Shown one piece after another: positions 51,450 to 52,400 of a stretch of DNA of 64,000 bases. The position numbers and the translations under genes were made by a program. The notes beneath the pieces were generated by a model. It ran no database searches and was not told the DNA's origin. It saw nothing but the letters and a program-made list of their open reading frames with translations. Numbering within the stretch: position 1 is the first letter of the stretch; every line of letters begins with the position of its first letter. This DNA comes from Phenylobacterium sp. LH3H17 (GTDB lineage: Bacteria; Pseudomonadota; Alphaproteobacteria; Caulobacterales; Caulobacteraceae), in NCBI RefSeq assembly GCF_024298925.1, contig NZ_CP101283.1:62001-126000 (forward strand). Direction: 5' to 3'.

Positions 51450-51574
51450 CGCCTTCTCCTTACGTTGTAAGCGCTCAGCCTAGGCCTCGGGCCGCGCGGG
51501 TCAAGCGCCGCGTATTGCCCGCCGCGCGCAATCTCGGCTATAGAGCTGGCGCGATCTTCATCAGCATGGCGGCC

Positions 51575-51706
51575 ATGAGCGCTTCCTTCGACCCACGCCT
51601 GACGACCTCGACGCGCCCCGCGGCGCGTGCGGCCGGCTGCGTCTCGAAAACCATGATGATGATTATTATCCCCATCACAGGAACGGGGCGAACGCGCGCG
51701 ACCTAA
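51575..51706 (+). CDS. Leader peptide with Met3-Ile3 run (ilv-type attenuator)
   Basis: A short open frame ending in MMMIIIPITGTGRTRAT, with codons ATG x3, ATT, ATT, ATC at 51653-51670. It could start at ATG 51575 (43 aa), at 51566, or be the 17-residue tail itself starting at 51653. The III-P-then-G-rich end recalls E. coli IlvL, which also has a III-PP segment. A ribosome stalled on the Ile codons would sit just before the CGGGG arm at 51684. It is followed by an attenuator-type terminator and two small genes. Confidence 0.65.
   Translation: MSASFDPRLTTSTRPAARAAGCVSKTMMMIIIPITGTGRTRAT
51684..51688 (+). promoter_or_regulatory. Candidate antiterminator arm
   Basis: CGGGG can pair with CCCCG at 51736-51740, the left arm of the terminator, which would disrupt the terminator when the ribosome stalls in the leader. 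The pairing is short, and I judged it by eye. Confidence 0.4.
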
Positions 51707-51733
51707 AAACCGCCGACGGATCGCAAGATCAGC

Positions 51734-51767
51734 AACCCCGCTCCCTTCACAGGCAGCGGGGTTTTTT
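51734..51767 (+). terminator. Attenuator terminator
   Basis: A nine-bp stem AACCCCGCT/AGCGGGGTT with a 12-base loop, followed by TTTT. It sits between the leader peptide and the small gene at 51815, the standard place for an attenuator. Confidence 0.85.
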
Positions 51768-51814
51768 ATTGCGCGCCGTCGGTCCCGACACCCTCATCAC
51801 AAGGACCCACAACC

Positions 51815-52123
51815 ATGCCCCAGGACCTATCTCAATCCCCATCCTCATCGGGTGACCCCGACGCCGGGAGCGCCGTGCGCGGCTTCGTGCGCACACTCGT
51901 CTCCCACGCCCTGTTCGAGCACACCGCGCGCCTGGAGGTGACGCTCGGCGGCGGCGGAGCGCTCGAGACCCTGCTGGCCGTGGAGCGCGCCCTGACCTGG
52001 CCGCCGCAAGGCCCCAGCCGTGAACTGATCTGGGCCACCGAGGCCGGAGCCCTGCGGCTCAGCGCCTATGACGAGGCCGGCCGCCTGCTGCTCAAACGCG
52101 ATTATGGCGGTCGCCGTGGCTGA
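51815..52123 (+). CDS. Small uncharacterised protein downstream of the attenuator
   Basis: 102 aa, soluble. A Ser/Asp-rich disordered start is followed by an alpha/beta segment (FEHTARLEVTLGGGGALETLLAVERALTW, ELIWATEAGALRLSAYDEAGRLLLKRDYGG). AAGGA lies nine bases before ATG 51815. I do not recognise a family. It overlaps the following gene and is the first gene after the attenuator. Confidence 0.65.
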   Translation: MPQDLSQSPSSSGDPDAGSAVRGFVRTLVSHALFEHTARLEVTLGGGGALETLLAVERALTWPPQGPSRELIWATEAGALRLSAYDEAGRLLLKRDYGGRRG

Positions 52124-52400
52124 CGGGAGCCCGTTCAAATGGACGGAAGGCCTGGCGGGACGCCGGACCTTCTTCATCGAGGCCGCGCGGGACGGCGACG
52201 TGCTGCTGCGCGTGCTGGGGCCGTTCGCGGTGCAGGGGGCGGAGATCGCCGAGATGACCGCCACCCAGGAGGGCGGCGGCGTCTCCATCCGCCTGGAGGT
52301 GTCGGGCCTCAGCCAGGCGCGCGCCGAGCACCTGGCCGAGCGCCTGCGCGCCCTGGCGGCGGTGTCCGGCGTCGCCCTGGGATGGAGGGCGGCCGCCTAG
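52104..52400 (+). CDS. Small protein resembling an ACT-type regulatory subunit (IlvM-like)
   Basis: 98 aa from ATG 52104 (GTG 52116 is also possible). The segment DVLLRVLGPFAVQGAEIAEM, a Gly-rich turn with VSIRLEVSGLS, then AEHLAERLRALAAVSGVAL matches the beta-alpha-beta-beta-alpha-beta order of short ACT domains such as the acetolactate synthase subunit IlvM. That resemblance, plus the ilv-type leader upstream, suggests control of branched-chain amino-acid synthesis, yet no catalytic ilv gene is adjacent. The stop shares CTAG with the lipoprotein gene. Confidence 0.55.
   Translation: MAVAVADGSPFKWTEGLAGRRTFFIEAARDGDVLLRVLGPFAVQGAEIAEMTATQEGGGVSIRLEVSGLSQARAEHLAERLRALAAVSGVALGWRAAA

Follow-up and report, generated by a model that had tools for sequence, protein, structure and literature searches.

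The window analysed here, a 64,000-nucleotide stretch of the 4.27 Mb genome of Phenylobacterium sp. LH3H17, contains two small genes, A and B, that overlap by 20 bases and lie downstream of a leader reading frame, a compact hairpin and an intrinsic terminator. The features of the locus are as follows:

51515..51543, + strand: promoter-like element TTGCCC-N16-GCTATAG upstream of the leader, spotted by eye
51575..51706, + strand: leader peptide ORF of 43 aa, MSASFDPRLTTSTRPAARAAGCVSKTMMMIIIPITGTGRTRAT, its start picked by comparison with relatives
51629..51771, + strand: whole leader-terminator element, 135.2 bits with covariance model R1, whose training set includes the window sequence itself
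51647..51670, + strand: putative regulatory codons AAA ACC ATG ATG ATG ATT ATT ATC (Lys, Thr, three Met, three Ile), from codon counts in 23 distinct leaders
51680..51688, + strand: arm 2 (GGAACGGGG), predicted by folding to be the antiterminator partner of arm 3
51719..51730, + strand: small hairpin GATC-GCAA-GATC between the leader stop and the terminator, with 98.8% of its cells paired across 43 leaders
51734..51767, + strand: intrinsic terminator, with its stem at 51734-51763, its T-run at 51762-51767 and its left arm AACCCCGCTCCCT serving as arm 3
51815..52123, + strand: gene A, 102 aa, a probable shortened stand-alone ASB (SDH_beta) domain of L-serine dehydratase, from profile and Foldseek
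52104..52400, + strand: gene B, 98 aa, a predicted stand-alone ACT domain of the IlvN/IlvH/IlvM kind, from profile, AlphaFold and Foldseek

The listed leader frame opens at TTG 51515 and stops at 51704-51706, with in-frame ATG codons at 51566 and 51575. Judged against its relatives, the 43-aa peptide starting at ATG 51575 is most likely the one that is made, and its C-terminal end reads KTMMMIIIPITGTGRTRAT. Arm 2 (GGAACGGGG) is complementary to the terminator left arm (CCCCGCTCC) with one mismatch. The terminator was recovered by a scan tolerating one mismatch in the stem, while the strict built-in scan returned zero E. coli-type promoters and zero terminators. The promoter-like element resembles the Caulobacter housekeeping promoter, and similar TTGC...TA pairs, found by eye, also precede most of the 21 leaders that were printed. 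On the strength of the ORF list and the one-mismatch scan, the leader, the CGGGG arm, the terminator and the two overlapping small genes described by the initial annotation are all present where it had placed them.

Gene B is, by its sequence profile and its modelled structure, an ACT protein. Its similarity to curated families is low when single sequences are compared: the match to Pfam ACT_5 (E 0.0045) scores 17.2 bits, under the curated cut-off of 27, and the match to PRK11152 of NCBIfam scores 13.3 against a cut-off of 68. ACT_5 is found in 7 of 13 gene B members, the best at 7.1e-5, and the first match of the gene B profile is the acetolactate synthase (ALS) small subunit IlvH (2f1f, E 0.0024). 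The AlphaFold model (pLDDT 80.8) has the element order beta-alpha-beta-beta-alpha-beta of a ferredoxin-like fold. With this model, the top Foldseek match is IlvN with bound valine (5ypp, E 8e-6), closely followed by the ACT domains of PGDH, Rel and ThrA. Among the named relatives of gene B, the nearest is likewise from Phenylobacterium and is 81% identical. The idea that the 98-aa protein has an ACT fold of the IlvN/IlvM kind is borne out by the profile match to IlvH, the AlphaFold model and the Foldseek match to IlvN, and a fold other than ACT, which would have told against it, is not what structure prediction returned.

For gene A, the likeliest identity is an ASB domain of L-serine dehydratase in shortened form, an assignment with weaker support from profiles and models than the ACT assignment of gene B. 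Alone, gene A has no match in Pfam. A profile of gene A and its relatives is similar to SDH_beta and reaches PDB entry 2iaf with E 5.8e-5 for the whole sequence, and all three matches listed are L-serine dehydratases; the 2iaf match is made of two collinear stretches that are singly weak (0.21 and 8.7) and leaves out the middle of the ASB domain. SDH_beta is found in five of nine gene A members (best E 0.011) and in two of four further relatives (0.034 and 0.041), being absent from the other two. In genome searches, five weak matches of the gene A profile fell in long ORFs and were all read as SdaA (L101 and L113 confirmed), and the window genome itself encodes a complete SdaA. Structure prediction with AlphaFold drew on eight sequences, and a single one of its five models scored well (74.1), the remaining four lying between 47.6 and 55.4. 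The top four Foldseek matches of the good model are L-serine dehydratases, the best at E 6.4e-4. The alternative that gene A is a degenerate ACT domain was rejected, as profile similarity is absent both to gene B and to the ACT-type first gene described next. In most fetched loci of the genus taken as Caulobacter, the first gene encodes a second ACT-like protein instead of A; profile comparison relates this protein to B (probability 94.8) and finds it unrelated to A.

The leader and small-gene system is patchy in Caulobacteraceae. Relatives of gene B at E 0.001 or better occur at 35 places in 34 of 149 genomes of the family, and in five of the 24 genomes listed for the window's own genus. Out of these 35 places, 30 loci were fetched, and all 30 carry a leader of at least 41 codons, counted from the first in-frame ATG, followed by a terminator 24 to 45 bases past its stop. 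A covariance model built from 23 distinct aligned leaders was run over 199 Caulobacteraceae genomes. A count by eye gives 63 matches that exceed 50 bits, spread over 57 of these genomes; the training set supplies 20 of the 63, and the next score below this group is 39.8 bits. In a sample of 240 genomes from the whole class, a score above 40 bits was reached in the window's own genome and in no other.

Forty of the 63 strong matches, together with three leaders from named records (L093, L094 and L099), make up the 43 leaders examined. The same small-gene families lie downstream of all 43, a count in which the link to B is there by construction for the 23 leaders located via gene B; two others (L111 and L112) were located via the gene A profile and 18 (L147-L152 and L162-L173) via the RNA model. 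An ASB gene and then B follow the leader in 17 cases, an ACT-type first gene and B in 18, an ASB gene without B in six and an ACT-type first gene without B in two. One of the 18, L009, is listed in swapped order because frames were taken from stop to stop. An msrA-like gene (peptide methionine sulfoxide reductase) adjoins the operon in L010, where its identity was confirmed, and in L012, L017, L020 and L008, where it was judged by eye. Its vicinity to a Met-rich leader may or may not be meaningful.

Of 385 genomes drawn from across the class, 42 contain matches of the gene B profile; the surroundings of these matches differ, and most lack an upstream terminator (L053-L089). Many of these are short ORFs like B and some are true ALS small subunits (L056 confirmed). 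The same attenuator was sought in front of these class-wide relatives and rejected: 29 of the 32 loci scanned upstream have no terminator-like site at a scan score threshold of 13, as against 10 for the 30 family loci, and in the three that have one (L081-L083) no leader was judged comparable. Weak matches of the covariance model, below 40 bits, account for 22 of 40 fetched loci, 20 of them read as ordinary terminators after genes and the other two being L161 and L175, described below. Four weak matches lie outside the family, three of which likewise look like ordinary terminators.

The fourth, L190, belongs to the order of genome G393. Here, a Lys/Thr-rich leader (for example MKMMTKRTKKTTTKPGRASEAARA) and a GC hairpin with a T-run precede asd, the gene for aspartate-semialdehyde dehydrogenase, and the same is seen in further loci of that order (among L191-L220). 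The asd gene was matched in 92 of 96 genomes of the order, and its identity was confirmed at L190; by our own count of the best 30 asd loci (L191-L220), the leader is found in 24, one of them (L208) without the T-run, and is absent in six. Judged from its sequence, this is apparently an independent attenuator that serves an aspartate-family enzyme in a different order. In another instance, L175 on the reverse strand of genome G135, a leader frame ending in SIALNTLILSVLLGLLAGAAWTLTT and a terminator stand before ilvD (dihydroxy-acid dehydratase), and the arrangement likely represents a branched-chain attenuator. Finally, L161 in the window genome (C1:1163936-1164073) has a short frame MRAAIFMHVTLCTAQAGPVGDVVR, a terminator and then a gene resembling GNAT acetyltransferases; it scores 29.9 bits with the leader model, a resemblance that may be due to chance.

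The codons upstream of arm 2 have a strongly biased composition. In the nine positions from -12 to -4 before arm 2 of the 23 distinct leaders (207 codons), Met occurs 48 times, Ile 45, Thr 44 and Lys 24, together 161 of 207. Against the 7526 codons that 17 long ORFs of the window supply as background, these are enrichments of 9.4-fold for Met, 4.3-fold for Ile, 4.0-fold for Thr and 3.9-fold for Lys, with lesser values for Asn (2.4-fold) and Trp (2.0-fold). Val and Leu each occur once, and Phe, Tyr, Asp and Glu do not occur at all in the 207 codons. The bias persists when a wider set of 38 leaders is reduced to 20 clusters, in which the four favored amino acids take 130 of 180 codons. Met, Ile, Thr and Lys are amino acids of the aspartate family, and the leader likely senses their shortage, to judge from this codon content. 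All four have ANN codons, so that within these leaders alone the choice of amino acid and a bias towards A in the first base are not fully separable.

One way to account for the bias with fewer signals is a plain isoleucine attenuator, in which only the ATT codon or codons beside arm 2 matter and Met, Thr and Lys merely keep the segment A-rich and unstructured. Among Ile codons, ATT accounts for only 10 of 380 in the background and for 43 of 45 in the leaders; it occupies codon -6 in 21 of 23 (51662-51664 in the window) and occurs between -12 and -4 in 41 of 43, including all five leaders with Leu/Val/Ile codons described below. Isoleucine would also connect threonine and branched-chain metabolism. 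The same counts pull the other way as well, in that the most enriched residue is Met, no Phe, Tyr, Asp or Glu appears, and many leaders of the genus taken as Caulobacter have only one or two Ile codons. The codon set furthermore shifts to Leu and Val in paralogues, meaning that composition alone is not the constraint. An attenuator responding to isoleucine only is rather unlikely in our estimation, and sensing of several aspartate-family amino acids is the reading we prefer.

Both sequence features expected of an attenuator are found at the locus: a leader ORF in which codons for apparently related amino acids follow one another, and a terminator whose left arm has an alternative partner in the segment right after the putative regulatory codons. 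Folding provides an account of how these parts could act together. Leaders were folded up to arm 3, mimicking the transcript before arm 4 exists, with a modelled ribosome footprint of 18 bases behind and 12 ahead of the A-site. For the window leader, 0.05 arm 2:arm 3 pairs are expected when it is free and 5.73 when a ribosome sits at the Ile codon. With the ribosome stalled at the conserved Ile codon, at least three such pairs are expected in 22 of the 23 leaders, L099 being the one in which the antiterminator does not form, and the classical ribosome-mediated attenuation that had been proposed for the locus agrees with this result. When the A-site was moved along the leader, 18 to 23 of the 23 leaders reached at least three expected pairs at codons -16 to -5, followed by 14 at -4, 12 at -3 and none from -2 on, where the footprint as modelled lies over arm 2 and so largely dictates the zero. 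In control trials that shuffled the stretch joining arms 2 and 3, 24 of 460 reached three expected pairs. The antiterminator still forms in 12 of the 23 leaders with no ribosome in the model. The fold of the window leader is only modestly better than that of its shuffles (z -1.79), and five relatives range from -1.05 to -3.73.

The terminator stem is 98.3% paired over the 43 leaders. Two-sided changes occur in one of 15 pairs, a number that 478 of 500 shuffles equal or exceed; the covariation score was reached by 2 of 500 shuffles and the share of paired cells by 9 of 500. Weak pair covariation is attributable to stems that hardly vary. The GATC-GCAA-GATC hairpin, almost invariant in the 43 leaders and perhaps a polymerase pause site, illustrates this, as covariation says little where a sequence is mostly invariant. 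The Ile codon and the hairpins, on whose conservation the initial annotation had staked its proposal, are retained in relatives. A conserved hairpin could also signify that the ribosome does not sense amino acids here, either because the element works as a riboswitch or small RNA or because the leader peptide itself is functional. A weak Rfam match to P9 (E 0.0031) could be taken in that sense, and leader peptides can act in trans, as reported for peTrpL of Sinorhizobium. The P9 match has 24.5 bits, under the curated cut-off of 43. Moreover, conservation follows the reading frame, the codon position and the antiterminator geometry, and the codons are exchanged along with the content of the operon, all of which makes a riboswitch, small RNA or functional peptide very improbable. 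Taken together, the element is very likely a ribosome-mediated transcription attenuator, as judged from its conserved parts and their predicted folding.

The exchange of codons is seen in five leaders of the same RNA family that carry Leu, Val and Ile codons. Leu and Val account for 23 of 45 codons in these five, as compared with 10 of 342 in the other 38 leaders, two of which (L029 and L165) were read in a doubtful frame; since the five form only two related groups, the statistical independence of this contrast is overstated. All five precede an ASB gene, and a search of 1.9 kb finds no ACT gene there. In three genomes ilvE comes next (by reading, with L147 confirmed by NCBIfam), and the other two loci adjoin a gene for class II fructose-bisphosphate aldolase (L111 confirmed). 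A sixth ASB-only locus, L152, retains MMITT. Because the Leu/Val/Ile codons occur in paralogues that lack the ACT gene, some with ilvE, the choice of codons appears to follow the operon. The exchange also argues against base composition as a rival explanation, and the paralogues amount to a natural experiment on codon specificity.

A branched-chain origin of the locus had seemed natural from its run of Ile before Pro, which recalls IlvL. Ile is indeed present in the control region, yet only one Val and one Leu are found in the 207 codons of the 23 leaders, and the genes downstream in the window are ASB-like and ACT genes rather than an ilv gene, ilvE being found in the three paralogous loci only. 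The window genome has one match to the ALS large subunit (ilvB) at E 1e-20. It lies about 1.1 Mb away and has its own terminator and its own, different leader with Ile-Leu-Val-Leu codons, and no ALS large subunit adjoins gene B. The leader of the window is accordingly not of the IlvL type. Of the suggestion that it is tied to branched-chain genes, what holds concerns the Leu/Val/Ile paralogues, with ilvE next in three genomes, and the tie fails at the window.

The initial annotation had also considered that the locus might be what remains of an ilvG operon. A decayed ilvGMEDA-like operon with an IlvL leader would explain why the Ile run precedes Pro and why gene B resembles the ALS small subunit. 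It would not explain why the layout is kept in several genera with the small genes open, nor why the first gene most likely encodes a mini ASB domain and no piece of ilvG. The near absence of Val and Leu codons and the separate leader of the genome's only large-subunit match also contradict decay, and we consider such an origin scarcely credible.

Instead, A and B resemble the ASB and ACT regulatory part of enzymes of the L-serine dehydratase and PGDH type, minus the enzyme; in the loci read, no enzyme gene was seen between the leader and B. From the parts, their conservation and geometry, the codon bias and the switch to Leu/Val/Ile in five ACT-less paralogues, as seen by sequence comparison and folding, we infer that these codons would serve to sense Met, Ile, Thr and Lys, and that A and B would be free regulatory domains: they would bind a small ligand and tune some amino-acid enzyme whose gene lies elsewhere. 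The reading we favor, and hold to be probable, is an attenuator whose leader senses Met, Ile, Thr and Lys and controls A (mini ASB) and B (ACT) as such domains. The ribosome would translate the leader through Lys-Thr-Met-Met-Met-Ile-Ile-Ile and would stall if any of these aspartate-family amino acids were short of charged tRNA. Arm 2 would then pair with the terminator left arm and the polymerase would continue into A and B, whereas a ribosome advancing over arm 2 would let the terminator form. The enzyme on which A and B would act could be the acetolactate synthase IlvB, a tentative first guess. If they do act on an enzyme, the system would couple starvation to feedback control.

In a more speculative extension, which we regard as unlikely as it stands, a single leader-terminator chassis with exchangeable codons would be wired to free ASB and ACT domains, and under starvation the loose domains would compete with the built-in ones, releasing a pathway enzyme from end-product inhibition. 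If true, this would constitute a modular starvation-sensing RNA cassette of Caulobacteraceae, in which attenuation acts on allostery and not on the amount of enzyme. In the open-access literature, outside of which most subscription journals lie, no paper on this locus or on such a coupling of starvation and feedback was apparent from titles and the first lines of abstracts.

Most of the amino-acid attenuators described so far govern enzymes or tRNA synthetases and respond to a single amino acid or a small branch of metabolism. The thr attenuator of E. coli is an example in which one leader, ThrL, senses several amino acids of one pathway, through a run of Thr and Ile codons only, and controls the thrABC enzymes. 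It shares with the window leader the use of several amino acids of one pathway and differs in its Thr/Ile run and in the enzymes downstream. Closer to home, the attenuator of C. crescentus ilvBN (ilvL) reportedly goes back to original work by Tarleton in 1994. According to a later source, this attenuator comes from the same family and likewise comprises a leader peptide, a terminator hairpin and ribosome pausing (PMC4117421). In the same account, its Ile and Val codons stand before an enzyme operon, whereas at the present locus Met, Ile, Thr and Lys codons stand before stand-alone regulatory domains (PMC4117421).

The products have precedents too. IlvN, IlvH and IlvM are small stand-alone proteins with an ACT fold, as gene B is predicted to be, its best sequence match being IlvH and its best fold match IlvN; unlike them, gene B does not lie beside a large subunit and falls far under the curated cut-offs. 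In two-chain L-serine dehydratase, the regulatory part is composed of ASB and ACT. Type I phosphoglycerate dehydrogenase likewise has ASB and then ACT as its regulatory part (PMC6300728). Both enzymes have the same pair of domains in the same order as A and B, and the difference is that A and B are separate small proteins without a catalytic part. The proposed mechanism is a known one, and what is unusual at this locus is the codon set for four amino acids, the exchange of codons from one paralogue to another and a controlled product that consists of orphan regulatory domains.
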